From IMG/VR virus record IMGVR_UViG_3300030104_004019, positions 1-33,554 of that record: 33,554 nucleotides of DNA; one strand, given 5' to 3'. This DNA is from a virus. This document shows, piece after piece, positions 919-16,916 of the stretch (positions are counted from its first letter, which is position 1; every line of letters begins with the position of its first letter). A program made the position numbers and the translations under genes. The notes beneath the pieces are model-generated. The model ran no database searches, had not been told where the DNA came from, and was given only the letters and a program-made list of their open reading frames with translations.

Positions 919-984
919 GTCAAAATGTTAATTTTGTTAATATTTTTAAAAATTAAGTGTCAGACAATTATATACTTATTTTTA

Positions 985-1015
985 CAAAAAAGAAAAGCCA
1001 GAAATTAATCTGGCT
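985..1015 (-). terminator. Rho-independent terminator after the 1069-1650 gene
   Basis: On the minus strand a 6-bp stem AGCCAG/CTGGCT (996-1001 with 1010-1015, loop of 8) is followed by TTTCTTTTTTG. It sits about 50 bases beyond the stop at 1069. It separates the leftward gene behind the 1650 promoter from terS. Just past it, at 967-972, the minus strand reads TATAAT, a possible -10 box for the terS-terL operon with only a weak -35 (TTTCTT) 17 bases away. Confidence 0.75.
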
Positions 1016-1068
1016 CAACTTTATTACTTATTATGAGGATTACATGCGTAATAATTTATTATAACTTA

Positions 1069-1656: not shown

Positions 1657-1711
1657 TTTCCTTTCTCAGTTATATATAGTATCGCATAAGATGGCAGGAA
1701 AGTAAAGTAAA
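1657..1711 (-). promoter_or_regulatory. Repeated promoter cassette, copy 1 (leftward)
   Basis: Read on the minus strand: TTTACTTTACT with the -35-like TTTACT at 1706-1701, a 19-base spacer, then TACTAT at 1681-1676, a short leader and GAGAAAGGAAA (1667-1657) before the ATG at 1650. It drives the leftward unknown gene. It matches the other four copies in spacing and in the GATACTAT core. Confidence 0.75.
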
Positions 1712-1899
1712 AAGTGAAAAAAGATTAAAAGATCCCAAACACTGGTTAACGAAACCATTAACTTTTGACATTGGGGTCGACCTATAACTTATTGTAATCA
1801 ATAAACTTTTCTGCCCATGAACCCAGTGTTACCAGTCTTCCCTAAATTTTTACAAAGAAATATTTTTTCTGATTTCTCTCCTTATATATACTTTTCTTC

Positions 1900-1949
1900 T
1901 TTACTATTTTAGAATAATATAAGATACTATAAATCCATTTGAGAAAGGA
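1900..1949 (+). promoter_or_regulatory. Repeated promoter cassette, copy 2 (rightward)
   Basis: TTTACT (1900-1905), 19 bases, TACTAT (1925-1930), then GAGAAAGGA (1941-1949) and the ATG at 1958. It lacks the doubled TTTACTTTACT and the GGCCAGAA spacer core of other copies, so it is the most divergent copy. It heads the long rightward arm. Confidence 0.75.
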
Positions 1950-1957
1950 AACCATTT

Positions 1958-2569
1958 ATGAATACAGATATCAGATTATTTCATGGCACAAGTAAAAAGC
2001 ATCTTGATTCAATATTAAGAAGAGGATTACAACCAAGAGGAACTAATCCATCCAACTGGGAAGACTTCCCATCAGCACCTGACAGAGTTTATCTGACAAG
2101 GTCATATGCAATATTCTTTGCAATCAAATCAGCTTACCTCACCAACACTGATCCTGTTATCATTGAAGTAGATGTCCAGGACAATTTAGTTGCTGACGAA
2201 GATTATCTTGCTCAATGTAAATGGAAAGATAAAGAATTAAATTTTTTACAGGATAAAAGTTTAGAAGATAAAACTTTGTATTGGAAGATAAGATCTCCAG
2301 CTTATCCAATGATGGCTGAACACTCATTAAATAAATTAGGTAACTGTTGCCACATGGGAACAATAAAACCAAAACAAATAAAAAGCTGGATGTCATTCAG
2401 AAAAGATAATCAGATAGCACTCAGCCATGATCCAACAATAACAATTCAGAACTTCTTCTTGCTCGGTCAAGGTTACATAAACTCTCTACAAAAGTTCTTT
2501 GACAGTTATGGTAAGCAAGGCAAGATGTGGGAAGAGTTTGATAAATTAATAGAGTTAAACAATGCCTAA
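1958..2569 (+). CDS. ADP-ribosyltransferase-like protein (Arr/DarT/Tpt1-type fold)
   Basis: This 203-residue protein is the first gene of the rightward arm. Its N-terminus reads LFHGTSKKHLDSILRRGLQP: a His in HGT (His9) followed by a 'L..IL..GL.P' helix. This is the entry strand and helix of ADP-ribosyltransferases such as rifampin transferase Arr, DarT and Tpt1. It is followed by DRVYLTRSYAIFFA (Tyr45 in YLT), then the strand PVIIEVDV and ADEDYL (Asp80 or Glu81), giving a plausible H-Y-D/E NAD-binding triad. The remaining 120 residues are helical, charged and unrecognised. Known phage ARTs (T4 Alt, ModA, ModB) modify host RNA polymerase or translation proteins, and first-gene position under an early promoter fits a similar job. 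Fold from motif reading is fairly convincing; substrate is unknown. An Arr-like resistance or DarT-like DNA-modifying activity is also possible. Confidence 0.62.
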   Translation: MNTDIRLFHGTSKKHLDSILRRGLQPRGTNPSNWEDFPSAPDRVYLTRSYAIFFAIKSAYLTNTDPVIIEVDVQDNLVADEDYLAQCKWKDKELNFLQDKSLEDKTLYWKIRSPAYPMMAEHSLNKLGNCCHMGTIKPKQIKSWMSFRKDNQIALSHDPTITIQNFFLLGQGYINSLQKFFDSYGKQGKMWEEFDKLIELNNA

Positions 2570-2930
2570 AGTATTTGTAGTCAACAGACCAATAAGAAAT
2601 AAATTCGGATGGACACCTGACTTGAGTGATGCATCTCGCTATGGTTCAATTGAAATAGTTTTTGAACCTGATGATAATCCTCAGTTTGTTCCATCTCCAA
2701 TGATAATGAAAGCAAGAAAGATAATGAAAGACTTCTCGCCAGAGGACTACATTCTCTGGCCAGGAGGAGGAGACCCAATAGCAGTGATGATAGTATGCAT
2801 GATTGCTAGTGAGTTCTCTCCAGTGGTGCGTGTCCTTAGATGGGAACGCAATCTAGACAAAGGTGACAGGGATAGAAGACAAGGTTGGTACATGCCTGTT
2901 GCTTTAAATTTAAGAAAGGAAATAGCATGA
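2562..2930 (+). CDS. Conserved phage hypothetical protein
   Basis: This 122-residue protein overlaps the ART-like gene by 8 bases. It starts PKVFVVNRPIRNKFG and has a central 'DYILWPGGGDPIAVMIVCMIAS' segment. It ends with VRVLRWERNLDKGDRDRRQGWYMPVALNLRK. I recall this layout (a 'D.Y.L..GDP.A......A' helix followed by V+VL+W+R) from uncharacterised phage proteins near replication genes, but no function is known to me. There are no catalytic motifs, cysteines in pairs or signal peptide. The 'VMIVCMIAS' stretch is hydrophobic but too short for a membrane helix. Cotranscription with the genes on both sides is likely because stop and start codons overlap. Confidence 0.7.
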   Translation: MPKVFVVNRPIRNKFGWTPDLSDASRYGSIEIVFEPDDNPQFVPSPMIMKARKIMKDFSPEDYILWPGGGDPIAVMIVCMIASEFSPVVRVLRWERNLDKGDRDRRQGWYMPVALNLRKEIA

Positions 2931-3514
2931 GTGAAATAAATCTGCTTGATGATGTAGCACCTGCATCAAATGAACTAGGTGCAATTTCTGATATGGCACA
3001 ACAGATGTATGATCTTCAAGAGGAGATTATGAAACTGGAACTGTCATTGAAACAAAAGAAGCAGGATCTCGATAAGTTGGCTACTCAAGACCTTCCAGAC
3101 CTAATGCAAGAACTGAATCTCAAAGACTTTACTCTTAACAATGGAGCAAAGGTTACAGTTGATGATGTGCTCAGTGGTTCAATACCATCAGCAAGTTCTA
3201 TACTTAGAGCAAAAGGTGAAGACAAGATGGAGAAAGAGATGCGCCAAGAACAATGCTTTGATTGGCTCAGAGCCAATGGTGGTTCAGATTTAATCAAGAG
3301 CAATGTTGAGGTTCAATTCGGTCGTGATGAAGATAAGTTGTGCAATGACTTTACAAAAGAGTTGCAGGACAGATCTATTCATTACAGAAGAGCAGTGGGA
3401 GTCCATCCAGCTACTCTCAATTCATTTTTAAAAGAAAAGATTGAGAATGGTTCAAATGTTCCCAGAGATACTTTCAAATTGTTTGAAGGTCGTAAAGCCA
3501 AAATAAGGAGATAA
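2927..3514 (+). CDS. Conserved phage protein with N-terminal coiled coil, next to SSB
   Basis: The ATG at 2927 is preceded by AAGAAAGGA and overlaps the previous stop as ATGA, so it is preferred over the in-frame ATG at 2885. The product is 195 residues. Residues about 20-60 are a heptad-like stretch (QMYDLQEEIMKLELSLKQKK) predicted to form a coiled coil. Then come 'LPDLMQELNLKDFTLNNGAKV', a conserved CFDWLRANGGSDLIK segment, and VHPATLNSFLKEKIENG near the end, with a basic tail GRKAKIRR. This is a recurring phage family of unknown function that sits beside single-strand binding proteins, so a role in replication or recombination is likely. No enzymatic motif is visible. Confidence 0.75.
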   Translation: MSEINLLDDVAPASNELGAISDMAQQMYDLQEEIMKLELSLKQKKQDLDKLATQDLPDLMQELNLKDFTLNNGAKVTVDDVLSGSIPSASSILRAKGEDKMEKEMRQEQCFDWLRANGGSDLIKSNVEVQFGRDEDKLCNDFTKELQDRSIHYRRAVGVHPATLNSFLKEKIENGSNVPRDTFKLFEGRKAKIRR

Positions 3515-3517
3515 ACT

Positions 3518-4306: not shown

Positions 4307-4307
4307 T

Positions 4308-4376
4308 TCTACTCCAAATAAAATTTTGCCTTAATTTTTAAAGAGTAGATGTTGTGGGGAGTAACTTCCCCACAGC
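4308..4376. promoter_or_regulatory. Two inverted repeats in the SSB-primase gap, including a 10-bp hairpin
   Basis: The outer repeat is TCTACTC (4308-4314) with GAGTAGA (4343-4349). The inner hairpin is GTTGTGGGGA (4351-4360) pairing with TCCCCACAGC (4367-4376), ten pairs with one G-U and a 6-base loop. No U-tract follows, so it is not a standard terminator. It lies 17 bases before the primase ATG (4394) and covers the region just after an alternative ATG at 4349. It may mark an RNA cleavage site, attenuate downstream translation, or bind a protein. Confidence 0.55.
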
Positions 4377-4393
4377 TTAATTGTGAGGATAAG

Positions 4394-5923
4394 ATGGCGA
4401 TTGAAGAAAGGTTTATGAACCTGTTTAGAGGATACGAACTTGCTCATGGGCAGTATCGTGTTCAGACAACAGAGGCAGATGGCAAGAAGTCTGGCAGAGC
4501 ATTAACAATAAGTGAGCCAGCAACAATAGTAAATTTTAAAGAACATTTAAATGGTGGCGAATATATATTAGGTGTCATCATGTTAAAGAAAAACAACTCA
4601 TGTAACTTTGGTGTGATTGATATAGATATTCGTGGCAGTGGTAAGCTGAATGAAAGTCTTGAGAGTCTTGAAAAGAAAATAAGAAACACTCCATTAATAC
4701 TTTGCAGAAGTAAGTCTGGTGGTGCTCACTTATATTTATTTGCAGATCCAGAGATTGCTGCAGTTGATATGGTAAACAAGTTGAATGAGTATGCAGCACA
4801 TTTAGGTTATGGTGGTGCTGAGATCTTCCCCAAGCAGATCTCTCGTGCTAATGATAGAGACAGAGGGAACTGGATTAACCTTTGTTACTGGGATGGTGAC
4901 AAGACTGAAAGATATGCAATCAGCAATGGCAAGAAGTTAAGTCTTATGCAGTTTGTAAAGTTAGCTGAAGAAAAGACAGCCACACACGATGAACTCATGA
5001 AGTCCAGCTTTAAATTAGTTGAACACTTCAAGGATGGTCCACCATGTCTGCAGCACATAATGACGATGGGATTCCCTGAAGGTGGTCGCAACAGTTCATT
5101 ATTTAATGTTGGTGTTTACTTTAGAAAAAAGAATCCAGACGACTGGCAAGAGGATCTGATGAAGTTTAATTATGAACATGTTGATGAACCACTGCCAGCA
5201 ACAGAAATAAATGGACTGATAAAAGCAGTCTTAAAAAAAGATTATGCATACACCTGTAAACAAGCACCAATATGTAACTACTGTGAACGATCCAAATGTA
5301 TCAAAAGAGACTATGGCATTGGTGGCATTGGTGGTGGTGCAACGATAGAGATAGATGCCATCACTAAATATGAAACTGAGAACAGGTCATCAGTGAGATG
5401 GTACATTGAAGTTCAGGGAGAAAGAATAGAAGTAACAACACAACAGTTACTTGACCAAAGACAATTACAAAAGCTATGTGTTGAAAAGTTAAATAAATGT
5501 CCAAGCACAATGCCTGCAGCAAAATGGGAAACAAGAGTCAATGAACTATTGACAACAGTTGAAGTCATACAAGATCCAGATGATGCAAGTCCACAAGGTC
5601 AGTTTGAAAAGATCCTTGATTCATTCTTAACAGGTAAAGTCCAAGCCAGACAAAAGGATGAAATCATGAATGGTAAGCCATGGCATGACTCTGATGAGAA
5701 CAAAGTTTATTTTAGATCTGAGGATCTTTTTATATTCCTTGAGTCAAGAAGATTTAGATATCCATCCCAGCACCAAGTTTGGTCTTGGCTGAGAACTTTG
5801 GAAGGTGATAGAAAAACATTCAGGATAAAATCCAAGCCAGTGAAAGTTTGGTCAGTGCCTGCACCAGAGTTTTATGATGATGAAGAACTTGATGTGCCAT
5901 CAACAGTTGTGGAGGATTTTTGA
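4394..5923 (+). CDS. Archaeo-eukaryotic-type primase (AEP) with C-terminal cysteine cluster
   Basis: This 509-residue protein probably makes RNA or DNA primers for the phage polymerase. The catalytic strand is FGVIDIDI (Asp76, Asp78), the hhDhD metal-binding motif of AEP primases. It is followed by CRSKSGGAHLYLF with the sxH motif His112, and by AEIFPKQ as in phage and TOTE-type primases. The C-terminal half has GPPCLQHI (Cys218), PEGGRNSSLF, then TCKQAPICNYCERSKC (Cys288, 294, 297, 302). These cysteines could hold zinc or, as in the PriL subunit, an iron-sulfur cluster. The last 190 residues are unrecognised and may contact partners. I chose ATG 4394 because GTGAGG lies just upstream; the ATG at 4349 would add 15 residues across a strong hairpin. 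The stop overlaps the helicase start. Confidence 0.75.
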   Translation: MAIEERFMNLFRGYELAHGQYRVQTTEADGKKSGRALTISEPATIVNFKEHLNGGEYILGVIMLKKNNSCNFGVIDIDIRGSGKLNESLESLEKKIRNTPLILCRSKSGGAHLYLFADPEIAAVDMVNKLNEYAAHLGYGGAEIFPKQISRANDRDRGNWINLCYWDGDKTERYAISNGKKLSLMQFVKLAEEKTATHDELMKSSFKLVEHFKDGPPCLQHIMTMGFPEGGRNSSLFNVGVYFRKKNPDDWQEDLMKFNYEHVDEPLPATEINGLIKAVLKKDYAYTCKQAPICNYCERSKCIKRDYGIGGIGGGATIEIDAITKYETENRSSVRWYIEVQGERIEVTTQQLLDQRQLQKLCVEKLNKCPSTMPAAKWETRVNELLTTVEVIQDPDDASPQGQFEKILDSFLTGKVQARQKDEIMNGKPWHDSDENKVYFRSEDLFIFLESRRFRYPSQHQVWSWLRTLEGDRKTFRIKSKPVKVWSVPAPEFYDDEELDVPSTVVEDF

Positions 5924-7380
5924 GACAGGTTGAAATAATATATGGACCACCAGGAACTGGGAAGACAACAGCACTCTTAAATATAGTTGAGACTGCTTTG
6001 GGTCGTGGTGTTAAGCCAGAGAGGATTGCATATCTTGCATTCACTCGTAAAGCTGCAAATGAAGCAATAGAAAGAGCCATGGCAAAGTTTAATCTTGATG
6101 AAGACAGGTTTCCATATTTTAGAACATTACACTCAATGGCATTCAAGCAACTAGGAATAAGAAGAGATGAAGTCATGACAGACTCTCATTTTAAAAACCT
6201 TGGCAAGTTATTGGGAGTGCAGTTCAAAGGAATATACGATGAGGATCTAGGTTTGCATCTTGGTGATGGACTTGGAGACAAATGTGCAAGAGTAGACTCT
6301 CTGGCCAGAATTAACATTCGTCCAATAGCAGAACAATATGCCTTTACACCTATGAATGATTTGACATTGCACGCAGTTAAACAATTCAGCAATGCTTTAC
6401 AACATTACAAAAAAGAAAGAGGTCTATTTGATTTCACAGATATGCTTGAGAACTGTCAGTCAGCATTAGATGTTGACATATGTATATTTGATGAGGCACA
6501 GGATCTTTCCTCACTTCAATTTAGCATGGCAATAAAACTTTCAAAACTTGCATCAGAAGTTTACATAGCAGGTGATGATGACCAAGCAATATTTAGTTGG
6601 GCAGGAGCAGATGTTAAAAAGTTCTTGAACCTTAATGGCTCAAAGAGAGTATTGCCAATGAGTTACAGGATACCAGCAACTGTCCACAGATTAGCCAACG
6701 ACATAGCATCCAGGATAAAACATAGAGTTCCCAAGCATTGGTCACCAAGAGAAGAGAAAGGCAATGTTGAATATGTTGTCGATGAACATCAGATAAATTA
6801 CAAAGGTGCAGGAACATGGATGCTTCTTTGCAGGTCTAAATATTTATTGAACAGGTTTAAAAAAGCTGTAAGACTTCAGGGATATGCTTATTCAATCAAT
6901 GGTAAAAGTTCTCTTGAGTCAGATGCAACCAAAGCAATAGAAGACTGGGAGAAGATAAGGAAAGGCAAAGAACTCTCTCAACACAGCACATCTAACCTGT
7001 CACATTTTATATATAAGAAAATAAAAGTCAAAAGAACTACACCATCAAAGTTTGAGGATCTAGGATTGCCAGAGGGATCTGAGAACAAAGACTGGATGGA
7101 AGTGTTGAGAGGAATACCATCAGACGAAAGAGAATACATAAGGTCATGTCTTAGGAATGGTGAGAAGTTTTCTGACAAACCAAGAATAACAATATCAACA
7201 ATCCACCAGAGCAAAGGTGGAGAAGCAGACAATGTTGTATTAATAACTGACATGGGAAGATTAAGCTGGGAAGCACTTGGCACAGATGAAGAACAAAGAG
7301 TTTGGTATGTGGCCATAACAAGAACAAGAAAGAATTTATTTATTGTAAGACCAAGAGGTCTGAGGCATTTTGCGATATGA
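5920..7380 (+). CDS. UvrD/Rep-type superfamily 1 DNA helicase (TTG start)
   Basis: This 486-residue ATP-dependent helicase carries all family motifs in order. Walker A is YGPPGTGKTT at residues 8-17, motif Ia AFTRKAANEA, and Walker B ICIFDEAQDL. Motif III is AGDDDQAIFSWAGA, motif IV MSYRIPATV, motif V ISTIHQSKGGEADNVVL, and motif VI VWYVAITRTRKNLF. It would unwind DNA during replication or repair. It is shorter than UvrD (about 720), with reduced 1B/2B inserts. The start is TTG at 5920, supported by GGAGG five bases upstream and by the TTGA overlap with the primase stop; no ATG lies before the P-loop. Codon use is like its neighbours. It ends an operon: an AT-rich terminator-like hairpin and a new promoter follow. 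Confidence 0.92.
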   Translation: MRQVEIIYGPPGTGKTTALLNIVETALGRGVKPERIAYLAFTRKAANEAIERAMAKFNLDEDRFPYFRTLHSMAFKQLGIRRDEVMTDSHFKNLGKLLGVQFKGIYDEDLGLHLGDGLGDKCARVDSLARINIRPIAEQYAFTPMNDLTLHAVKQFSNALQHYKKERGLFDFTDMLENCQSALDVDICIFDEAQDLSSLQFSMAIKLSKLASEVYIAGDDDQAIFSWAGADVKKFLNLNGSKRVLPMSYRIPATVHRLANDIASRIKHRVPKHWSPREEKGNVEYVVDEHQINYKGAGTWMLLCRSKYLLNRFKKAVRLQGYAYSINGKSSLESDATKAIEDWEKIRKGKELSQHSTSNLSHFIYKKIKVKRTTPSKFEDLGLPEGSENKDWMEVLRGIPSDEREYIRSCLRNGEKFSDKPRITISTIHQSKGGEADNVVLITDMGRLSWEALGTDEEQRVWYVAITRTRKNLFIVRPRGLRHFAI

Positions 7381-7403
7381 ATAAGTCTTTGTTATCATTG
7401 AAT

Positions 7404-7435
7404 AAAAAAATTATTTCTTCAGAAATAAAATTTTT
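7404..7435 (+). terminator. AT-rich terminator after the helicase
   Basis: The stem is TTATTTCT (7411-7418) with AGAAATAA (7421-7428), loop TC, followed by AATTTTT and preceded by a run of seven A. The stem is all A-T except one pair, so efficiency may be modest. It sits directly upstream of promoter copy 3. Confidence 0.5.
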
Positions 7436-7484
7436 ACTTTACTTCACGACAGAAATAAAAGATACTATCAGAATTGAGAAAGGA
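7433..7484 (+). promoter_or_regulatory. Repeated promoter cassette, copy 3
   Basis: TTTACTTTACT with TTTACT at 7438-7443, 19-base spacer containing ACAGAAATAAA, TACTAT at 7463-7468, GAGAAAGGA at 7476-7484, and the ATG at 7493. It restarts transcription after the helicase. Confidence 0.75.
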
Positions 7485-7492
7485 AATTTATT

Positions 7493-8131
7493 ATGACTAT
7501 TTTTACAATCGATCCAAAATCTTACAAAGTAAGTATGTATTCATCCAGAAAGGTTGCCCAACAACATGGCAATGGAATGATTACATTTAGCAACTCATCT
7601 GAGTTAGCATTAGATCCTAATGTGACAATGCAAATCCTTGTGAATGTTTTTAACAATAACAATAGCAGTATGACAAAAAAGTTTGCTGATAAAACAAAAG
7701 GTTCAAAAAGAGTATTTGAATGTTTACAACAAAAGTTTTCTGTTGTAGATCCTATTGGTCCAGTTACTGCCAAAGCATCTGTTGGCGACCAACAAGTTTA
7801 TATTCCCAAGGAAAAGAAGATCGCAGACTCCAGTGGCACAAAGCCAACGAAGTTGAGAGGAAAGTTTGCAGGCAGATATATTGTCAACCATCTTGAATCA
7901 AATCCTCGTAGACCAAACACCAGAGGTTTTCATGCCACTGGTATCCTTGTCAATCTTGGTGCTGAGCAGGGAACAATCAGCTATGAAGATTACATAGAAC
8001 AAGGTGGTCATCGTCAAGATCTCGCTCATGACTTGGGCAGAGGTCGTTGTAGTATCCTTGGTAAAGATAAGAATGGAAAATACTTTACTGTGTTTGGTAA
8101 TACTAAAATAGCAGGGAAGTTAAACAAGTGA
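7493..8131 (+). CDS. Phage protein of unknown function behind promoter copy 3
   Basis: This 212-residue basic protein has an N-terminal half rich in Asn, Ser and Val that is not recognised. Its C-terminal half has the segment SNPRRPNTRGFHATGILVN, then TISYEDYIEQGGHRQDLAHD and LGRGRCSIL. This 'NP+R..T.G / YEDY...GG.RQDL..D...G' pattern recurs in uncharacterised marine-phage proteins, in my memory next to replication genes. There is no nucleotide-binding or metal-binding motif. Basic character could suit DNA or RNA binding, but that is a guess. It is the first gene behind its own strong promoter, so it is probably abundant. The following lipoprotein gene overlaps its stop by four bases (GTGA). 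Confidence 0.65.
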   Translation: MTIFTIDPKSYKVSMYSSRKVAQQHGNGMITFSNSSELALDPNVTMQILVNVFNNNNSSMTKKFADKTKGSKRVFECLQQKFSVVDPIGPVTAKASVGDQQVYIPKEKKIADSSGTKPTKLRGKFAGRYIVNHLESNPRRPNTRGFHATGILVNLGAEQGTISYEDYIEQGGHRQDLAHDLGRGRCSILGKDKNGKYFTVFGNTKIAGKLNK

Positions 8132-8373
8132 GGAAGTTTTTATTATTCTCAGTGATGGTCGTTATGGGAGCATGTAGTTCCCAACGATCTGATGTTAAAC
8201 TTGTCAAGGAAAAAGAGATGTACCAGTTGACTCGTCAAGAAGTTATTAATGGGCATCAAGAATGCAAGGCAGCAGGATTAAGACCAGTAACAGTTTACAC
8301 AAGAATATTTGTTGATGGCAGACCTGTACCAGTTGCTATTGATGTAACATGTGGAATAAAGGGCAAGGACTAA
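8128..8373 (+). CDS. Small phage lipoprotein
   Basis: The 81-residue product begins MRKFLLFSVMVVMGACSSQ: two basic residues, a hydrophobic core and the lipobox MGAC with Cys16 as the lipidation site, so it should be cut by signal peptidase II and anchored in a membrane. The mature part is short and polar with two more cysteines (QECKAAG and DVTCG) that could pair. The start codon is GTG at 8128 with AGGGAAG upstream and a GTGA overlap with the previous stop. Phage lipoproteins of this size often block superinfection (for example T5 Llp); Rz1-type spanins are another class but are usually Pro-rich and sit by lysis genes, unlike here. Function is inferred only from the signal and place. Confidence 0.7.
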   Translation: MRKFLLFSVMVVMGACSSQRSDVKLVKEKEMYQLTRQEVINGHQECKAAGLRPVTVYTRIFVDGRPVPVAIDVTCGIKGKD

Positions 8374-8603
8374 TGGATATAAAATTAGCACACATGTTAA
8401 TAAATAACTTGACATCAATCCCTGATGGTCACGACGATCTTCACTTTTATTTAAAAACTTTAAAAGGAGAGGTTCCAGAAGATCACAAGCCATCAAAGAT
8501 TGAATGTCTTGAGCATCTTGAATTAAAAGTCAACGAACAGATAAGACAATGGGAGTCCATAAGAACTCGAATAAAAAATTATCACAATGGTTTAGACAAA
8601 TGA
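8373..8603 (+). CDS. Small helical protein of unknown function
   Basis: ATG 8373 overlaps the previous stop as TAATG and has AAGGA upstream, so it is chosen over an in-frame ATG at 8349. The 76-residue product is charged and mostly helical (SIPDGHDDLHFYLKTLKGEV, then CLEHLELKVNEQIRQWESI), perhaps a small coiled coil. I do not recognise a family. It is translationally coupled to the FAD-dependent protein gene, whose start overlaps its stop. Confidence 0.6.
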   Translation: MDIKLAHMLINNLTSIPDGHDDLHFYLKTLKGEVPEDHKPSKIECLEHLELKVNEQIRQWESIRTRIKNYHNGLDK

Positions 8604-9526
8604 TAATTTGGGGAGCAGGACTCGCAGGTCTTCTAGCTGCAAATATGTTTAGGAAGTGGTCACCTGTAGTATATGAAAAGCAGGATTCACTTCCTAATAA
8701 TCACAACGCATTATTAAGATTTAGAACAAATCAAGTTGGCACTGCTTGTGCCATACCTTTTAAAAAAGTAAAGGTAACAAAAGCAATCAAATATGATAAG
8801 CAAATAATAACAGAACCAAATTTATTTTTTAGCAATATGTATTCTCAAAAGGTTACAGACTCTGTCCTCAGCAGATCCATAGATAATTTGGATCCAGTCC
8901 AGAGATACATAGCACCACAAAATTTAATAGAGCAAATGTCTATTGGTGTTGATATAGATTACAATGTTGAAGCAAACACAGAGTCATTATTTTATAGAAA
9001 AGAAAAAAGTTATCCTGTAATATCTACATTGCCAATGCCACTAGCGATGAAGATGATTGGTTGGGAGAACTTTCCTAATTTTAGAACTAACACAATCTGG
9101 TCACAAAGCTGTGAGATTGGAGAACCAGAAGTTAATATAAATCAAACTATTTATTATCCAGATCCATTGGTGCCTCAATATAGGATCTCCATAGTTGGTA
9201 ACATAGTGATAGCAGAATACAGATCTCAACCACCAAACACAGGTCAGTTCATCCATGAGGCACTGTATGATGATTTTGGATTCAGAACCAAAAGACTAAT
9301 CAATCTTTCAACCAAAGAACAGAAGTATGGGAAGATTATGCCTATTGATGACAAGACAAGAAAAGACTTTATTTATACACTCACTGAGAAGTATAATATA
9401 TATTCTGTCGGAAGATTTGCGACTTGGCGACAGTTGTTATTAGATGATGTTGTTAATGATATCAGTGTTATTGAGAGATTGATTACCAGCAACTCTAATT
9501 ATAATTTTAGAAAGGAAATGATATGA
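8600..9526 (+). CDS. FAD-dependent oxidoreductase-like protein
   Basis: The 308-residue protein starts MIIWGAGLAGLLAANMF: a Rossmann strand with GAGLAG (residues 5-10) at the very N-terminus, then VVYEK with Glu26 at the end of strand 2, which normally binds the FAD ribose. Near the C-terminus, NIYSVGRFATWRQLLLDDVV resembles the GR..TW.....DD motif that closes the FAD site in UDP-galactopyranose mutase and related amine-oxidase-fold enzymes. The substrate cannot be told. ATG 8600 is chosen because the glycine motif follows at once and it overlaps the previous stop; an ATG at 8549 would add 17 residues. It lies directly upstream of thyX, itself a flavoenzyme, so it may serve nucleotide, cofactor or cell-surface sugar metabolism. 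Confidence 0.65.
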   Translation: MIIWGAGLAGLLAANMFRKWSPVVYEKQDSLPNNHNALLRFRTNQVGTACAIPFKKVKVTKAIKYDKQIITEPNLFFSNMYSQKVTDSVLSRSIDNLDPVQRYIAPQNLIEQMSIGVDIDYNVEANTESLFYRKEKSYPVISTLPMPLAMKMIGWENFPNFRTNTIWSQSCEIGEPEVNINQTIYYPDPLVPQYRISIVGNIVIAEYRSQPPNTGQFIHEALYDDFGFRTKRLINLSTKEQKYGKIMPIDDKTRKDFIYTLTEKYNIYSVGRFATWRQLLLDDVVNDISVIERLITSNSNYNFRKEMI

Positions 9527-10182
9527 AAGTAAAATTAATTAATGCAACAAGTGATGCAGTGGATTTATTGCTGTTCACTAAGAACACCAGACTCATGAAT
9601 GATGAAGGTGCTTATGATAAAATAAAGGCATGGCCACAAGAGCAAAAAGATGAGCACCTTGATTACATGCTCAACACCATAAAATCTTCTTGGGAATTTA
9701 TTGATTACACATTTGATATTAGAGATGTGTCAAGAGGATTTACTCATCAGTTTGTTAGAACCAGACAAGGATCTTATGCTCAACAATCTCAAAGAACTGT
9801 AGACATGACAGGTTTTGAATATTACACTCCAGAAAGAATTATTGCAGATGGCATGGCAAAAGAGATCTATGATGGCACAATGGAAATAATCAATCAAAGA
9901 TATCAACAGTTGATAACAGCAGGTGTTCCTGCAGAAGATGCCAGAGGAATATTACCAACTAATATTTATACAAATATAGTTGCAAAATTTAATCTTAGAA
10001 CTTTACATGAGATGGCAAAGAGTAGATTGAGTCCAAGAGCACAAGGTGAATATCGTGAAGTGTTTACAATGATGGTCGCTGAAGTTGTAAAAGAACATCC
10101 ATGGGCAAAACCATTCTTAACACCTAAAGAGTGGGCAGCACCATCAATGGCCAGATCTCTCAATCCAGAGGTGAAGTCATGA
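9523..10182 (+). CDS. thyX: Flavin-dependent thymidylate synthase, variant motif
   Basis: ThyX makes dTMP from dUMP using FAD, NADPH and methylene-tetrahydrofolate, supplying thymidine for phage DNA. The 219-residue length fits. The region SRGFTHQFVRTRQGSYAQQSQR matches the ThyX signature, and the motif is R79-T80-R81-x7-S89, where nearly all known enzymes have RHR-x7-S. The dUMP and folate region NIYTNIVAKFNLRTLHEMAKSRLSPRAQGEYREV is intact, with the usual R.Q.E pattern. The ATG at 9523 has AGAAAGGA upstream and overlaps the previous stop. Thr in place of the flavin-facing His is unusual and may be a lineage trait or affect activity. Confidence 0.93.
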   Translation: MKVKLINATSDAVDLLLFTKNTRLMNDEGAYDKIKAWPQEQKDEHLDYMLNTIKSSWEFIDYTFDIRDVSRGFTHQFVRTRQGSYAQQSQRTVDMTGFEYYTPERIIADGMAKEIYDGTMEIINQRYQQLITAGVPAEDARGILPTNIYTNIVAKFNLRTLHEMAKSRLSPRAQGEYREVFTMMVAEVVKEHPWAKPFLTPKEWAAPSMARSLNPEVKS

Positions 10183-10697
10183 ATATATTTTATTTAGATA
10201 GAGATCCAGGAACTGCTGCAGCAATGCATTGTGACAAGCATGTTGTTAAAATGATATTAGAAACAGCACAGATGCTTTCAACTGCTCACAGAGTTTTAGA
10301 TGGTGATGAGCCAGCAGATGAAGTTGGGCTGTATAAAAGAGCATTTGAAAATCATCCATGCTCTATATGGTTGAGAGATTGTGTAACTAATTATATGTGG
10401 GGATATAATCTCTTCACTTCATTATTAAAAGAGTACACAAGAAGATATAAAAAATTTCATGCTTCAAATAGATTATCAAATCTTTTAAGTTATGAACCAG
10501 ATAACATTGCTAAGTTTAAATGGCAATGCAATATGGATGCACCAATGTCTTGGTTGGGAGTTACAGAGCCACCACAATGCATGCCAGATAAATATAAATG
10601 CGAAGATCCTGTTCAAGCATACAGGAATTATTATCTTGGTGAAAAAATGTATATGGCTGTTTGGACAGAAAGAGAGGTGCCACAATGGATACAATAG
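10179..10697 (+). CDS. Conserved phage protein, HCDKHVVKMILE family
   Basis: The 172-residue protein starts MNIFYLDRDPGTAAAMHCDK and continues HVVKMILETAQMLSTAHRV. Later come HPCSIWLRDCVTNYMWGY, EYTRRYKKFH and, near the end, EDPVQAYRNYYLGEKMYMAVWTEREVPQW. I recognise this as a widespread uncharacterised family of marine phages, including cyanophages, often beside nucleotide-metabolism genes. Conserved His, Asp and Cys in 'HCDKHVVKM' could form a metal or catalytic site, but no reaction is known to me. The ATG at 10179 has GAGGTGA upstream and overlaps the thyX stop; an in-frame ATG at 10131 is less likely. Its place after thyX hints at nucleotide or DNA metabolism. Confidence 0.75.
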   Translation: MNIFYLDRDPGTAAAMHCDKHVVKMILETAQMLSTAHRVLDGDEPADEVGLYKRAFENHPCSIWLRDCVTNYMWGYNLFTSLLKEYTRRYKKFHASNRLSNLLSYEPDNIAKFKWQCNMDAPMSWLGVTEPPQCMPDKYKCEDPVQAYRNYYLGEKMYMAVWTEREVPQWIQ

Positions 10698-11149
10698 AAA
10701 CAGATAATAATCTCTTTAGAAAGAAGATAATCATAACAGATCTAGATGGCACAATATCAGATTGCACTCATAGGTTGAAGCATTATAAAAAGAATAATTA
10801 TTTTAAATTTAATGAACTTGGTTCTGAAGATTTACCTATAACACCAATCGTCAATATTTTAAGGAACTGTAAAAGTCAAGACAATGATGTTGTTGTTATC
10901 ACTGCTCGTGATGAATACCACAGACCAGCAACTCTTGACTGGTTGAAAAGATATGACATCCCTTGTGACAATTTATTGATGAGACCATCTGATGATAACA
11001 GGTATGATGATGAAGTCAAGCAGGATCTTTTTGAAAGGAATTATGAAAAGGAAGATGTTTGGTTTGTTCTCGAAGATAGACAGATGGTAGTCAATATGTG
11101 GCGAAGTTTAGGTCTCACTTGTTTACAACCAGCTCCAGGAGATTTTTAA
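10685..11149 (+). CDS. HAD-family phosphatase (polynucleotide 3'-phosphatase-like)
   Basis: The 154-residue protein has HAD motif I as IIITDLDGTISD (nucleophile Asp19, acid Asp21) and motif II as VVVITARDEYHRPATLDWL (Thr73). A Lys in DEVKQDLF serves as motif III, and WFVLEDRQMVVNMWRSLGL as motif IV. The DRQMVVNMWR.LGL.C ending and the 'T(A)R...RP.T..WL....I' segment are those of the phosphatase half of T4 polynucleotide kinase. There is no P-loop kinase domain, so it would only remove 3' or nucleotide phosphates. ATG 10685 follows GAGAGG and overlaps the previous gene by 13 bases. It may trim DNA or tRNA ends or act on nucleotides. Confidence 0.82.
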   Translation: MDTIETDNNLFRKKIIITDLDGTISDCTHRLKHYKKNNYFKFNELGSEDLPITPIVNILRNCKSQDNDVVVITARDEYHRPATLDWLKRYDIPCDNLLMRPSDDNRYDDEVKQDLFERNYEKEDVWFVLEDRQMVVNMWRSLGLTCLQPAPGDF

Positions 11150-11331
11150 TGGGAATAAGAATAATAAATAATGACATTGAAATAGATGGTGAAAAGGTTG
11201 CTCGTATATTTGATGTGCGACCAACTCTAAAAGATCGACTCATTCAAGTTATCGAAAATGCAGATGACCATGAAGAAGAGATCCAAAAAGCATATGAGAG
11301 AGGAAGAGAGGACGCAGAAAACGATGAATAA
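11149..11331 (+). CDS. Small conserved phage protein of unknown function
   Basis: The 60-residue product starts at ATG 11149, which overlaps the previous stop (TAATG) and has AGGAGA upstream. It reads MGIRIINNDIEIDGEKVARI, then FDVRPTLKDRLIQVIENAD, followed by a very acidic helix EEEIQKAYERGREDAENDE. The beta-hairpin 'I.IDGE.VARI' plus a short helix is a pattern of small phage proteins of unknown role. It overlaps the next gene by 8 bases. Confidence 0.6.
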   Translation: MGIRIINNDIEIDGEKVARIFDVRPTLKDRLIQVIENADDHEEEIQKAYERGREDAENDE

Positions 11332-11623
11332 AAATCCAGCTAAAATTTTAGAAGAGATGGCTAACACTTTCCGTGAAAGGAACAAGGTCTATGGAGATAA
11401 CTGGAAAGTTGTTGGGGAAGTCATGACGTCATTATTTCCGAATGGTGTTGTACTTAAAACCGAAGAAGATTATAATATATGGCATCTGTTTGAACTTCTT
11501 GTTGTTAAGATAACAAGGTTTGCTAACAGTGAATTGAAGCATCAAGACTCAATTCATGACACTGCAGTTTATGCAGCAATGATTGAGGGAATGATTACTA
11601 AGTTAAAGAAAGGAAAAAATTAA
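11324..11623 (+). CDS. DUF6378-like small phage protein
   Basis: This 99-residue protein from ATG 11324 contains ILEEMANTFRERNKVYGDNW, then a VLKTEEDYNIWHLFELLVVKI segment, TRFANSELKHQDSIHDTAVYAAMIE and a basic tail. The order 'ER...YGDN ... KI.R......H.DS..D.A.YAA...' matches the phage domain I know as DUF6378, whose helices and conserved E/D residues recall MazG-type NTP pyrophosphatases. A role in nucleotide pools is therefore plausible but unproven. The in-frame ATG at 11258 would overlap the previous gene by 74 bases and is not preferred. Its stop overlaps the SDR start. Confidence 0.65.
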   Translation: MNKNPAKILEEMANTFRERNKVYGDNWKVVGEVMTSLFPNGVVLKTEEDYNIWHLFELLVVKITRFANSELKHQDSIHDTAVYAAMIEGMITKLKKGKN

Positions 11624-12297
11624 TGAGTAATATTTTAATAACTGGCACTGGCAAAGGTCTTGGCAAAGCCATGAAAGAAGAATTAGAAAAACAAGGTCAT
11701 TCAATTATAGATTATAATTTAGAAGATGGAAATGATGTAAGAATAACTAAAGATCTAATAATGTGGGAAAACATTGATGTGTTAATAAATAATGCTGGTG
11801 TCAACCTTATAGATTGGCTGGAGGACTTTGAAGAAGATATGTGGGATAAAGTTATGGATACAAATGCCAAAGGTATTTATATGATGACTAAGGCATGTCT
11901 GCCAAGTCTAATTAGAAGAAAAGGAACTGTCCTAAATATAGTCAGCAATGCAGCACACATGCCAATGACTTGTTCTCTTGCATACAATGCATCCAAAGGT
12001 GCTGCCCATATAATGACTTTACAGTTGGCTCGTGAATTAACAAAAAAGCATGGCATAACAGTTTTTGGAATAGCACCAAACAAATTAAAAGGAACTGGAA
12101 TGAGTGATGCAATAGATGACCAAGTTGTAAAAACTCGTGGCTGGACAAAAGAATATGCTCAACAATATCAACTCAATGGATTATTGACAGGTGAAGAAAC
12201 ACCACCACAAAGGTTAGCAGAGTTTGTTGCATTTCTACTTCAATCAAAAGAACACCACAAATATTTAACTGGTTGTATTTTACCATATGGAGCATGA
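11623..12297 (+). CDS. Short-chain dehydrogenase/reductase (SDR)
   Basis: The 224-residue NAD(P)-dependent oxidoreductase has the cofactor loop TGTGKGLG (residues 7-14), NNAG at 56-59 and Asn81. Its catalytic set is Ser108, Tyr121 and Lys125 (AYNASKGA). All residues of a classical SDR are present, so it should be active; the substrate is not predictable. It lies inside the replication arm between a DUF6378-like gene and a VOC protein, with overlapping or tight spacing, so it is not a stray insertion. It is likely an auxiliary metabolic gene taken from a bacterium; base and codon use do not differ visibly from its neighbours. Confidence 0.88.
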   Translation: MSNILITGTGKGLGKAMKEELEKQGHSIIDYNLEDGNDVRITKDLIMWENIDVLINNAGVNLIDWLEDFEEDMWDKVMDTNAKGIYMMTKACLPSLIRRKGTVLNIVSNAAHMPMTCSLAYNASKGAAHIMTLQLARELTKKHGITVFGIAPNKLKGTGMSDAIDDQVVKTRGWTKEYAQQYQLNGLLTGEETPPQRLAEFVAFLLQSKEHHKYLTGCILPYGA

Positions 12298-12298
12298 C

Positions 12299-12778
12299 AT
12301 GAAATTTAAAATAGAACAGATAGCAATCCGTCCAAAACATCCTATTCGTGCAAAACAATTACTTTCTGAGATAGGTGCAGTAGATTGGTCAGAAGACCAT
12401 GTTGTTGCCACTGGCAAGGTTTTTGGTCATGAGGGAACTAATGAAGCAGACTTGTCTTTTAACTATGAAATATTTGATGGCAAAGAGTTTGAGATTTTAA
12501 ATTATACCAAAGGAAGAAATTGGATTGATTCAGCACATCCTGAGGGAAATGTAGTTAGTCATCTTGGTATGCATTGTTCAGCAGAAGAACTTGAAAAATG
12601 GAAAGAATTTTTTCATCAGAGAGCAATTAAAATTTCTCAAGAAGTTTTTACAGACTCACATACCAATCCTGTCATAGCAGGCAAAAGGTCATATAATTAT
12701 GTTATATTTGATACAAGAAAAATACTTGGTGTGGATCTTAAATTTATTGTTAGGATAAATAAAGATGATAGTCTTTGA
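12299..12778 (+). CDS. VOC (glyoxalase-like) family protein
   Basis: The 159-residue protein starts MKFKIEQIAIRPKHPIRAKQ with a repeating beta-alpha-beta-beta-beta layout. Its first module ends in FEILNYTKGRNWID, the strand that in VOC enzymes gives a metal-binding Glu. The second starts with SHLGMHCSAEELEKWKEFF, with His as the metal ligand. RSYNYVIFDTRKILGVDLKF then forms the last strands. VOC proteins isomerise, open or conjugate small molecules or bind drugs; the specific reaction is unknown. ATG 12299 has GGAG six bases upstream; the ATG at 12287 is an alternative. It directly follows the SDR gene, so the two may act on one metabolite. It overlaps the exonuclease gene by 14 bases. Confidence 0.65.
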   Translation: MKFKIEQIAIRPKHPIRAKQLLSEIGAVDWSEDHVVATGKVFGHEGTNEADLSFNYEIFDGKEFEILNYTKGRNWIDSAHPEGNVVSHLGMHCSAEELEKWKEFFHQRAIKISQEVFTDSHTNPVIAGKRSYNYVIFDTRKILGVDLKFIVRINKDDSL

Positions 12779-13298
12779 TTTAGAAACAACAGGTCTTCCA
12801 AAAGCTGAAGGATCTGATTTAGACATTCAACCAAGAATTATAGAGTTTGGTGCTATAAAGGTTGATGATGATTTTAAAGAGATTGACAGGTTTCAATTTT
12901 TATGTAGTCCTGGATTTGCTTTAGATCCATACATAATTAAACTGACTAAAATTACAGATGATATGCTTGAGGACAAAAAACCATTTTTGGGATATTACAA
13001 AGAACTCTGTAATTTCTTTTTGGGAGAAAAATCTTTGTGTGCTCATAATCTTGCTTTTGATAGAAAGATATTAAGGTTTGAACTTGAGAGAGCAGAAAAG
13101 ACTTGTAAATTCCCATGGCCACCAGAACATTATTGTACCATTGAAATAGGTCAGTCAGTCTGGGGAAAGATGAGAAAGCTAACAGAACTTTATAAAGAAG
13201 TAACTGGCAAAGACCATGTTGGTGCTCACAGATCTTTAGACGATGTTGAAGCAACAATAGAGATTTTAAAATGGTATAAAAAAGAAGGTCATATATGA
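12765..13298 (+). CDS. DnaQ-like 3'-5' exonuclease (DEDDh)
   Basis: This 177-residue protein probably proofreads for the phage DnaE. Exo I is FDLETTG (Asp5, Glu7), Exo II is CAHNLAFDRK, and Exo III is HRSLDDVEAT with the His typical of DEDDh enzymes. The region 'PRIIEFGAIKVDD' and 'ITDDML' are family traits. It covers only the nuclease domain of about 180 residues, as in the epsilon subunit without its clamp-binding tail. It overlaps both neighbours, and its stop overlaps the polymerase start (ATGA), so the two products are likely made in step and may form a core polymerase. Confidence 0.93.
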   Translation: MIVFDLETTGLPKAEGSDLDIQPRIIEFGAIKVDDDFKEIDRFQFLCSPGFALDPYIIKLTKITDDMLEDKKPFLGYYKELCNFFLGEKSLCAHNLAFDRKILRFELERAEKTCKFPWPPEHYCTIEIGQSVWGKMRKLTELYKEVTGKDHVGAHRSLDDVEATIEILKWYKKEGHI

Positions 13299-16108
13299 TA
13301 AACCTTAGAACAAGGACTGAATATTCTTTTAGAACTGCATATGGTCCAATAGATAAAATAATATCTGATTGTAAGCAGGACTCTATGGGAATATGCGATA
13401 TGGGAACTTGGGGTCATGTTGCTTTTGATTCAGCTTGTAGAAAAGCAGAGAAGAAACCTATCTTTGGAGTAGAACTGGCAGTTGTCGAAGATGCAACAGA
13501 CAGAAGTAAACAGCCAATAAACCTTATGGGATTTATAGCCAAGAACAATCAAGGTCTCCAAGAACTTTATCAGCTTGTCACAAAAGCAACAGACCCATCA
13601 AGATTTTATTATGTGCCAAGATTAAGTTATGAAGATTTATTTGATGTAACCAAAAATATAATTATGCTCTCTGGAACTAATCCTATGTGGGGATCTTTAC
13701 CAATAACTAATAAAGAAAATCTTTACATAGAATTAAATCCAATGACAACTAAAAAGTCTTTGAACTGGGCAGAAGAAAGAGGTTTTAAAGTTGTTGCGAC
13801 AAGTGATAATTTTTTCCCAAAAGTTACAGACAGAAAAGTTTATGAAGTTTTGACAGGTCGAAACAGATATGACAGAACAAAGCCAATGCATATATTAGAT
13901 GAGTGGGAACTCAGAGATCTTATTCCTTGGATACCAGATGAAGCATTTGAGAACACTCACAGGATTGCAGATATGTGTAATGTTGAACTGCCATCTGCTA
14001 AAATGATGAGTTACGAATCAAAAAAGACTTTGAAACAAATGTGTGAGGAAAATGCAAAGCCAAGAGGAATAGACCTAAAAGATCCAATTTACAAAGCAAG
14101 ATTGAAAAGAGAACTTGACATGATTGCAGAAAAACAGTTTGAAGATTATTTTTATGTGATATCTGATATGATTAATTATGCAAAAAAGCATATGTTGGTT
14201 GGACCAGCAAGAGGATCTTCTGCTGGATCTTTAGTTTGTTATTTATTAAATATTACAGATGTGGATCCATTAAAGTATGATTTATTGTTTGAAAGATTTA
14301 TTGACATCACTCGTAAAGATCTTCCTGATATAGATATAGACTTTCAAGACGACAGAAGAGAAATGGTGATACAATATTTAATAGATAAATATGGTGTAGA
14401 GAAAGTTGCACATTTAGGAACTGTTTCTCGTTACAAAGCCAAGAGCACAATAACAGAGGTTGCCAAAGAACTTGGTGTGCCAGCATGGGAAGTAAATGAT
14501 TTAAAAGGTGCAATCATAGAAAGAAGTTCAGGTGATGCTCGTGCAGCAATGTGCATAATGGATACATTCAATGATTTAGAGATTGGCAGAACTGTTTTAA
14601 AAAAATATCCTCAAATGAGAATAGCTGAACATATGGAAAATCATGCTCGTCACAATGGTGTTCATGCTGCAGGAATAATTGTAACAGAAGAACCAGTTCA
14701 TAAATATTGCTCTGTAAATATGCAAAATGGTGCAGCACAGATAGATAAGCATGATGCAGAAAGATTAAATCTTCTTAAAATTGATGCTTTAGGTTTGAGA
14801 ACTTTATCAATATTGCAAGATGTTTTGGATCAAGTTGGTTGGGAAAGAGAGAAACTAATTAATTGGAAACTTGACGATGATGATGCTTTCAAAGTTTTAA
14901 ATGATGAAAAGTATGCAGGAATATTTCAGTTTGAAGGATATGCACTTCAGTCTCTTACAAGACAAATGAAGATACAAGACTTTGAGGATGTGGCATCAAT
15001 TACTGCTCTTGCTCGTCCTGGACCATTGAACTCTGGTGGCACAACTCAATTTATAAAAAGAAGAGTTGGAGACGCACCAACAGAATATATGCATCCAATG
15101 ACAGAAGAAATAACAAAAGTTACTTTTGGTGTTGTTGTTTATCAAGAGCAGGTGATGAACATAGCCAGAGATGTTGGTAAGTTAAGTTGGGAAGATGTAT
15201 CTCAATTAAGAAAGGCAATGTCAAAATCTTATGGTGAAGAGTTTTTTGACAGGTATTGGCAAAGATTTAAAGTTGGTGCTGAGGAAAATGGCATTGATGA
15301 AGACCAAGCACTGAAGATCTGGAAGAACATTAATACAATGGGATCTTGGGCATTTAATCGCAGTCATGCTATATCCTATGGTTTGGTCAGTTATTGGTGT
15401 TGTGTATTGAAAGCCAAGTTCCCACTTGAGTTTGCTGCAGCATGTTTAAGAAATGTTAAGGATGAAGAACAAGGAATAAGACTGTTAAGAGAAGTTGTAA
15501 ATGAGGGATTAAAATACAAACCTTTTGACAGATTTAAATCAGAGATAAATTGGTCTGTGCAAGATGGAGAACTTATTGGTGGATTGATAGGAATAAAAGG
15601 CATTGGACCAAAAATGGCAGAAGACATAATGAACAGAAGAGAAAGCAGTCAACCTCTAACTCCAAGGCAGGATCGTCTTTTAAACGAGGGAGAAACACCA
15701 TACGACGATATATTTGAGTGTGAAAGGAGGTTTGGTCATATGAAGAAAAATCCAGAGAAACATGGCATTAAAACGAGGATTATTAATATACAGGATCTCG
15801 AAGCAGATACTCCAGGAACATATGTATTTTTTGGCAAGTTAAAAGAAAAGAACTTGAGAGATATGAATGAAACAGTTAACCTAGCAAAGAGAGGTGGTCG
15901 CAGAGTAGATACACATAATCTCTGGTTGAACATGACTTTCGAGGATGATACTGGTCCAATCATATCAACCATCGATAGGTTTAAATATCCAAAATTAGGC
16001 ATACCAATAGTTGAAGAAGGCAGGATTGGTGATTGGTATTTAGTCAAAGGAATAATAAAACAAGGATTCAGAAAGATCTATGTTGAGAGAGTTCGTAAAC
16101 TTACATAA
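13295..16108 (+). CDS. dnaE: DNA polymerase III alpha subunit (DnaE-type), PHP site degenerate
   Basis: This 937-residue replicative polymerase is shorter than bacterial DnaE (about 1160). The N-terminal PHP domain starts MINLRTRTEYSFRTAYG, where the metal-binding HxH of active PHP domains is replaced by Arg5-Thr-Arg7. The palm has GPARGSSAGSLVCYLL and the catalytic LPDIDIDF (Asp345, 347, 349). The fingers have ARPGPLNSGG, VVYQEQVMNIARDVG and QLRKAMSKS. A helix-hairpin-helix is seen in GLIGIKGIGPKMAEDI, then a C-terminal OB-like region. No clear tau-binding tail is present. Separate DnaQ exonuclease lies just upstream. It ends the operon: an A-T hairpin with a T-run follows. Confidence 0.95.
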   Translation: MINLRTRTEYSFRTAYGPIDKIISDCKQDSMGICDMGTWGHVAFDSACRKAEKKPIFGVELAVVEDATDRSKQPINLMGFIAKNNQGLQELYQLVTKATDPSRFYYVPRLSYEDLFDVTKNIIMLSGTNPMWGSLPITNKENLYIELNPMTTKKSLNWAEERGFKVVATSDNFFPKVTDRKVYEVLTGRNRYDRTKPMHILDEWELRDLIPWIPDEAFENTHRIADMCNVELPSAKMMSYESKKTLKQMCEENAKPRGIDLKDPIYKARLKRELDMIAEKQFEDYFYVISDMINYAKKHMLVGPARGSSAGSLVCYLLNITDVDPLKYDLLFERFIDITRKDLPDIDIDFQDDRREMVIQYLIDKYGVEKVAHLGTVSRYKAKSTITEVAKELGVPAWEVNDLKGAIIERSSGDARAAMCIMDTFNDLEIGRTVLKKYPQMRIAEHMENHARHNGVHAAGIIVTEEPVHKYCSVNMQNGAAQIDKHDAERLNLLKIDALGLRTLSILQDVLDQVGWEREKLINWKLDDDDAFKVLNDEKYAGIFQFEGYALQSLTRQMKIQDFEDVASITALARPGPLNSGGTTQFIKRRVGDAPTEYMHPMTEEITKVTFGVVVYQEQVMNIARDVGKLSWEDVSQLRKAMSKSYGEEFFDRYWQRFKVGAEENGIDEDQALKIWKNINTMGSWAFNRSHAISYGLVSYWCCVLKAKFPLEFAAACLRNVKDEEQGIRLLREVVNEGLKYKPFDRFKSEINWSVQDGELIGGLIGIKGIGPKMAEDIMNRRESSQPLTPRQDRLLNEGETPYDDIFECERRFGHMKKNPEKHGIKTRIINIQDLEADTPGTYVFFGKLKEKNLRDMNETVNLAKRGGRRVDTHNLWLNMTFEDDTGPIISTIDRFKYPKLGIPIVEEGRIGDWYLVKGIIKQGFRKIYVERVRKLT

Positions 16109-16116
16109 GTCATTGA

Positions 16117-16148
16117 TTTTATTGAATAATAAAAATAATTCTTTTTTT
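16117..16148 (+). terminator. AT-rich terminator after dnaE
   Basis: The stem is TTTTATT (16117-16123) with AATAAAA (16128-16134), loop GAAT, followed by AATAATTCTTTTTTT. It is 9 bases past the dnaE stop and merges into promoter copy 4. The arrangement matches the terminator plus promoter at 7404-7484. Confidence 0.5.
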
Positions 16149-16203
16149 ACTTTACTTTCTGGCCAGAATAGACGATACTATAAATATCAATACTGAGAAA
16201 GGA
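16146..16203 (+). promoter_or_regulatory. Repeated promoter cassette, copy 4
   Basis: TTTACTTTACT with TTTACT at 16151-16156, a 19-base spacer carrying TGGCCAGAA, TACTAT at 16176-16181, GAGAAAGGA at 16195-16203, and the ATG at 16210. Its TGGCCAGAA core is shared exactly with copy 5. Confidence 0.78.
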
Positions 16204-16209
16204 AAAAAT

Positions 16210-16728
16210 ATGATTAGTAAATTTACAGTAAAACCAAGACAGATTACAGACTGGATGGGCAATATAAGAAAGACTTGGTGTGGTCCATATGCACTGGCTG
16301 TTCTTACAGGAACTCATTATGAGTTTGCTTATAGGACATTAAAAGAGATCCGAAGAAAAAGATCGACTGCAGGTGTCACAAATAAAAATATGATGTCAGC
16401 ATTCAAAAATTTAAATGTCAAATATAAGCACACTAAATTAGACAAAAGAAAAAAGCTGGCAAATTATATCAACGATGATTTGGCACCAAACAAAGTCTAT
16501 TTGGTTCAGATAACAAAACATTATCTTATTATTGACACAAGAGATTGTACAACAATAGATAATCAGATTCCACAATGGAATGACATGCACTCGACAAAAC
16601 ATTCTAAGAAATTAGTCTGTGAAGTTTTCGAGATCTTAAATCCAAACTTTGATCCATATCACCAAAACATGGATTTTAGGTTTGATGAGACTAATCAAGA
16701 AAAAGAAAAATTAGTCGCAAAATCTTAG
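16210..16728 (+). CDS. Papain-like (C39-like) cysteine peptidase candidate
   Basis: The 172-residue protein has TWCGPYALAVLTG near the N-terminus (Cys24 at the start of a helix) and VYLVQITKHYLIIDTRDC further on (His104, then Asp117 or Asn118). This is the order and spacing of a papain-fold Cys-His-Asp/Asn triad, as in C39 peptidases and transglutaminase-like enzymes. The middle is basic (KEIRRKRSTAG). The ending is polar and charged. It is a single-gene unit: own promoter upstream and a strong hairpin and another promoter downstream. It might cut a host protein, a phage protein or an isopeptide. Homology is judged from motifs only; it may be an inactive relative. Confidence 0.55.
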   Translation: MISKFTVKPRQITDWMGNIRKTWCGPYALAVLTGTHYEFAYRTLKEIRRKRSTAGVTNKNMMSAFKNLNVKYKHTKLDKRKKLANYINDDLAPNKVYLVQITKHYLIIDTRDCTTIDNQIPQWNDMHSTKHSKKLVCEVFEILNPNFDPYHQNMDFRFDETNQEKEKLVAKS

Positions 16729-16735
16729 GTGTAAT

Positions 16736-16767
16736 CATACATGGGAGATTAATTTCTCCCACGTATG
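16736..16767. promoter_or_regulatory. Strong hairpin without U-tract after the papain-like gene
   Basis: CATAC-A-TGGGAGA (16736-16748) pairs with TCTCCCA-C-GTATG (16755-16767), twelve pairs around one A-C mismatch with a 6-base loop TTAATT. No T-run follows on the plus strand, only CCCATTAAAACACG. It is 8 bases past the stop at 16728. The stem resembles that at 4351-4376 in G-rich left arm and AT loop. RNA processing or 3'-end protection is a reasonable guess. Confidence 0.6.
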
Positions 16768-16861
16768 CCCATTAAAACACGATTATTTCTACCAATATTA
16801 AACTCCTATAACATATTAATATAATTATCTTTTTTTAGACTTTCTTTAAAATAGTTATTTT

Positions 16862-16916
16862 TTTACTTTACTTTTGGCCAGAAATAAACGATACTATATA
16901 TATCATTGAGAAAGGA
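16862..16916 (+). promoter_or_regulatory. Repeated promoter cassette, copy 5
   Basis: TTTACTTTACT with TTTACT at 16867-16872, a 19-base spacer with TTGGCCAGAAATAAACG, TACTAT at 16892-16897, GAGAAAGGA at 16908-16916, and the ATG at 16924. The upstream stretch 16768-16861 is AT-rich and holds no gene. Confidence 0.78.

Follow-up and report, generated by a model that had tools for sequence, protein, structure and literature searches.

The early/replication module of this marine phage is probably read from five sigma-70 promoters, each joined to the same ribosome-binding site, and many promoters of this type in the phage family may be helped by IHF bound at a putative upstream site. The stretch of DNA analysed (hereafter the window) is a virus record of 33,554 bases, probably a fragment. 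Its five promoter cassettes (Table 1) form a real set, far from chance. For uncultured marine phages, promoters have seldom been established; the cassettes give a set that can be checked, its start register defined, for a family present in dozens of metagenome contigs.

A preliminary description of the window had placed the five cassettes before the genes starting at 1650 on the minus strand and at 1958, 7493, 16210 and 16924 on the plus strand, and all five are found there. Each comprises TTTACT, GATACTAT and GAGAAAGGA, followed by an ATG located 30 to 34 bases from the first base of the TACTAT inside GATACTAT. The doubled TTTACTTTACT is present in four cassettes, the exception being the one before 1958, again as described. 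The five copies are 67-85% identical to one another over about 65 bases. The copies before 16210 and 16924 do have the spacer core TGGCCAGAA in common, but its offset relative to the boxes differs by one base. A role of TGGCCAGAA as an operator was considered and rejected: the 12-base palindrome TTCTGGCCAGAA (16157-16168) is perfect in cassette D only and shifted in cassette E, and mainly the left half (TCTCTGG) is kept in relatives. The doubled TTTACTTTACT was likewise rejected as a required double box, as relatives have ATAC, GTGC or CTC before TTTAC. The cassettes are confined to the replication-type module; behind a terminator-like hairpin and another conserved element, distinct from the cassettes, come the genes for the terminase and the structural proteins.

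Table 1. Promoter cassettes, upstream elements and gene A in the window.
Feature	Position	Strand	Parts	Downstream gene or remark
Cassette A	1659-1711	-	TTTACTTTACT 1711-1701; -35 TTTACT 1706-1701; 17-base spacer; -10 GATACT 1683-1678; ribosome-binding site GAGAAAGGA 1667-1659	Gene A; assigned from sequence and relatives
Cassette B	1900-1949	+	Lone TTTACT 1900-1905; 17-base spacer; -10 GATACT 1923-1928; GAGAAAGGA 1941-1949	1958-2569 (+)
Cassette C	7433-7484	+	TTTACTTTACT; -35 7438-7443; 17-base spacer; -10 GATACT 7461-7466; GAGAAAGGA 7476-7484	7493-8131 (+) and onward
Cassette D	16146-16203	+	TTTACTTTACT; -35 16151-16156; 17-base spacer TTCTGGCCAGAATAGAC; -10 GATACT 16174-16179; GAGAAAGGA 16195-16203	16210-16728 (+)
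Cassette E	16862-16916	+	TTTACTTTACT; -35 16867-16872; 17-base spacer TTTGGCCAGAAATAAAC; -10 GATACT 16890-16895; GAGAAAGGA 16908-16916	16924-17625 (+) and onward
Upstream element of cassette C	7382-7394	+	TAAGTCTTTGTTA	8/9 of the IHF consensus; same element in G001 at 8170
Upstream element of cassette D	16106-16118	+	TAAGTCATTGATT	9/9 of the IHF consensus; begins at the polymerase gene's stop codon
Gene A	1069-1650	-		193 aa; first gene behind cassette A; a terminator-like hairpin (1016-995) follows

The cassettes had been described as having an exact, anomalous 19-base spacer, with a non-standard sigma interaction as a possible consequence. The 19-base distance is true of the inner TACTAT but not of GATACTAT, which lies 17 bases from TTTACT. 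Taken literally, TTTACT-N19-GATACTAT is nowhere matched exactly in the window, and the seven matches at up to three mismatches are at chance level (5.8 expected). With N17 the window contains five exact matches and, at up to three mismatches, 14 (6.2 ± 2.3 expected), a number reached in none of 100 shuffles; a reversed control pattern gave none in the window at up to two mismatches. To examine the register, every AGAAAGGA ribosome site preceding a start codon was collected from the window and its relatives, giving a set of 281 sites that includes close relatives. The upstream TTTAC was taken without requiring a -10 box, and identity to TATAAT was scored at every spacer length. TTTAC clusters 38-50 bases 5' of AGAAAGGA, with 178 occurrences versus 23 in regions read backward. 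Mean identity to TATAAT across the family is 3.81 of 6 at a spacer of 17 and 2.27 at 19; no other length exceeds 2.99.

The hexamers at spacer 17 are TATAAT-like (TAGAAT 13, GATACT 8, TAGAGT 7, GATAAT 6, TACAAT 6 and also TATACT), whereas those at spacer 19 in relatives are incoherent (GAATAC, CAATCT, GAGTAT), which identifies the -10 box as GATACT behind a spacer of the usual 17 bases. The apparent 19-base spacer thus arises because the -10 box was placed two bases off. TACTAT does match TATAAT at four of six positions, and in each of the five window copies it is 19 bases away from TTTACT, but since only the 17-base register remains TATAAT-like in relatives, a true 19-base spacer needing a non-standard sigma or an activator is very improbable. 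The predicted geometry is that of a normal sigma-70 promoter: GATACT has four of the six bases of TATAAT, the spacer is 17 bases in 5/5 cassettes, and the -35 box TTTACT, invariant in the window, has four of the six bases of TTGACA and is weak by consensus standards. A generic sigma-70 scan of the window did not list the five cassettes. Among family promoters, a G at -14 is conserved (65%) and an A-rich sequence is kept directly 5' of the -35 box. The set of 55 distinct promoters used below was selected with a 17-base spacer presupposed, and the spacing itself is argued from the -10-free register test only. The idea of a regulon read by the host polymerase stands, while the special spacing and special sigma, a tempting misreading, fall: the likeness to TATAAT peaks at 17. 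A search for a sigma factor (sigma-70 region 2) found none.

We identified 59 loci with the DnaE-type polymerase of this phage in the viral collection. In G001 (53,676 bases), the long relative nearest to the window, there are five perfect cassettes and no more; they occupy the corresponding positions before the same genes, and its extra 20 kb contain no cassette. The counterpart of cassette A lies at 2494 on the minus strand of G001 and is also found in L112, L107 and L114. A second relative, G010, has seven cassettes at up to two mismatches, and distant relatives show the same architecture before the orthologs of genes C, D and E and the first leftward gene. The proposal of a conserved promoter set over a replication-type module is borne out by this recurrence. 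When 2.9 million viral contigs were scanned for exact matches to three cassette versions, only this family was hit, and one exact pattern of a sister-clade version was absent from 84,980 bacterial and archaeal species genomes. Between cassette D and gene D, G001 (L065) has a 48-codon gene (16992-17138) that is absent from the window, which indicates that new genes can arrive immediately behind a cassette. Such gain recalls PeSL, the mobile promoter/stem-loop cassettes of T4-like phages proposed to let genes be swapped behind a promoter; the repeated early promoter units with exchanged genes are similar, but no terminator-like hairpin is found at the cassettes, and most copies stand at orthologous genes. 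We regard it as quite unlikely that the cassettes are mainly mobile repeats aiding gene insertion behind a ready promoter, with a secondary promoter role. The similarity of the five copies and the inserted gene would fit, but copies remain at orthologous genes across distant relatives and no stem-loop accompanies them; function and mobility are in any case compatible.

T7-type phages have a repeated conserved promoter per genome that is read by a phage RNA polymerase. The repetition is shared here, with sigma-70 boxes instead of such a polymerase: the single-subunit RNA polymerase domain (PF00940) is absent from nine family records, whereas the T7 control was found, the window itself being probably a fragment. 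Most of the largest G001 proteins examined are virion proteins or unassigned. With neither a phage RNA polymerase nor a sigma factor found, the host polymerase is, as the preliminary description suggested, the likely reader of the cassettes; host sigma-70 use and early timing are inferred. A host search found no relative of the polymerase in 84,980 species genomes. The Roseobacter phages CRP-901/902 were rejected as a guide to the host; they share the terminase (69% DNA identity to that of G010) but are without cassettes. A literature search found no paper on promoters of this phage family, and promoters go unmentioned in the CRP-901 paper.

A second element, TAAGTCATTGTTTTTA, is present 5' of TTTAC in many family promoters and takes the form (T)AAGTCATTGTTTTTA in the family. 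It usually lies 30-31 bases from TTTAC; distances of 39-40 and 50-51 form lesser groups, and a few sites are at 44 and 55. At up to two mismatches the motif has 70 matches, 65 of them with TTTAC 28-57 bases 3', the corresponding values for permuted motifs being 7.5 and 0.3; these statistics are descriptive, the motif having been found and tested in the same data. The element resembles the IHF consensus, TAAnnnnTTGATW (PMC10380432). At least eight of the nine consensus bases, in the right orientation, are found in 34 of the 55 distinct promoters, compared with 4.0 in shuffles and 3 on the opposite strand. Of shuffled motifs with the same composition, 2.7% reach 8/9, and T replaces the A of TTGATW at most sites. 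In the window the element is present at cassettes C and D and absent from A, B and E; its distances to the working -35 box, 55 and 44 bases, are outside the 30/40/50 series. Eleven of the 15 sites at distances other than 30-31 are in helical phase and four are not (p about 0.0008 on an assumption of independence that these related sites do not satisfy), and the steps of roughly ten bases suggest, without more weight than that, a protein on one helix face. The ortholog of the cassette D promoter in G003 carries TAAACACTTGATT at nearly the same distance, with 9/9 consensus bases; compared with TAAGTCATTGATT, the bases read by IHF are kept while the four unspecified bases change from GTCA to ACAC. 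This pair is the strongest single point in favor of reading the element as an IHF site. By its match to the consensus, the element is most likely a putative IHF site, and we give even chances to IHF binding there. Within the collections covered, the cassettes were confined to this family. The suggestion of a specific activator receives some support in changed form: there is a conserved upstream element in the family, but it is best matched by IHF.

A phage-encoded or other host activator that binds the element and makes the cassettes an activator-dependent phage regulon is a less favored explanation, which we consider unlikely. About 30 of 38 sites keep the GT within the four IHF-neutral bases, the element goes with these promoters, and its spacings (30-31, 39-40 and 50-51) hint at a fixed helix face, all of which would suit such a protein. 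However, Pfam and PHROG scans of the examined early proteins revealed no DNA-binding regulator, the model of the gene A product was weak and had no structural match, and G003 has other bases in place of the GT but keeps every IHF position. Slightly more doubtful still is that the A/T-rich stretch is a mere UP element for the polymerase alpha subunit, with no separate protein. The A-rich sequence 5' of the -35 box would be consistent with this, as would the T4 early promoters, which combine UP, -35, TGn and -10 elements (PMC2988021). A UP element accounts poorly for the fixed G positions (AAGT, TTG) and for the shifts of 10 or 20 bases relative to the promoter.

In the favored model, the host sigma-70 polymerase would bind TTTACT/GATACT soon after infection, and transcription would begin at five points, all with a short leader and an identical strong GAGAAAGGA ribosome site. 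The early/replication module would be expressed as two divergent units, gene A leftward and the primase, helicases, DnaE-type polymerase and nuclease rightward. The upstream element would most often lie about 52-66 bases before the start point, and at many family promoters IHF would bend the DNA there and favor polymerase binding in the manner of lambda PL. On this view, a single DNA-bending protein of the host may contribute to setting early gene expression in the phage. A bolder version, for which we hold rather less than even confidence, is that the sigma-70 promoter and helically spaced IHF site form a repeated composite switch, through which IHF (or a phage activator) could coordinate the whole early programme.

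On these comparisons the cassettes would belong to a known promoter type, like lambda PL and the T4 early set but without the T4 TGn, in a repeated composite form. Lambda PL has a GATACT -10 box, a 17-base spacer and upstream IHF sites, and is used by the host sigma-70 polymerase for early genes. The cassettes match it in -10 box and spacer and would resemble it in use for early genes and, where the upstream element is present, in putative IHF sites, with host sigma-70 and IHF presumed, but have TTTACT in place of TTGACA at -35, occur several times per genome joined to a constant ribosome site and have no repressor operator shown. The T4 early promoters are also several, conserved beyond the -35 and -10 boxes including upstream sequence, and read by host polymerase (PMC2988021). 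The extended -10 TGn of T4 is absent from the family, where AAGA precedes the hexamer and only the G at -14 is kept, and this unrelated phage family has an IHF-like element instead of the plain UP element of T4.

Several observations concern the neighboring genes. The family of gene A has a conserved C-terminal domain, GGFxGHxxNQxDQKW...GRH...PRKFYDYNF, and in several relatives is found near the leftward early unit. Gene B (1958-2569), the first rightward gene, occurs only in the window's own clade and shows a weak, below-cutoff resemblance to the RNA 2'-phosphotransferase Tpt1/KptA (FHGTS motif); its predicted structure model was unusable. The Tpt1/KptA fold is related to ADP-ribosyltransferases, and T4 ADP-ribosylates the host polymerase. 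For the divergent region 1712-1890, other clades (L122, L123, L125, L127, L128) have AAGGTCGGTAATGCTAAAAAATTA before TTTACTTTTA, which suggests a special promoter for the first rightward gene. The region 5' of the small terminase gene (919-1020, minus strand) corresponds in relatives to a hairpin and T-run followed by TTACAGTT..CAGTTGACCACTGnAA, once per genome (G009 23608-, G014 16114-, G016 22652+, G017 21897+, G005 5512-, G007 5746-). G004, G003 and G011 have one-base variants and the window's clade a diverged version; the element could be a late promoter region or a packaging site. Finally, the genome is mosaic: its terminase (3-918) is related to that of CRP-901/902, as seen with G010, and its replication genes (4349-16108; AEP-type primase, UvrD helicase, DnaE-type polymerase) are related to those of other phages.
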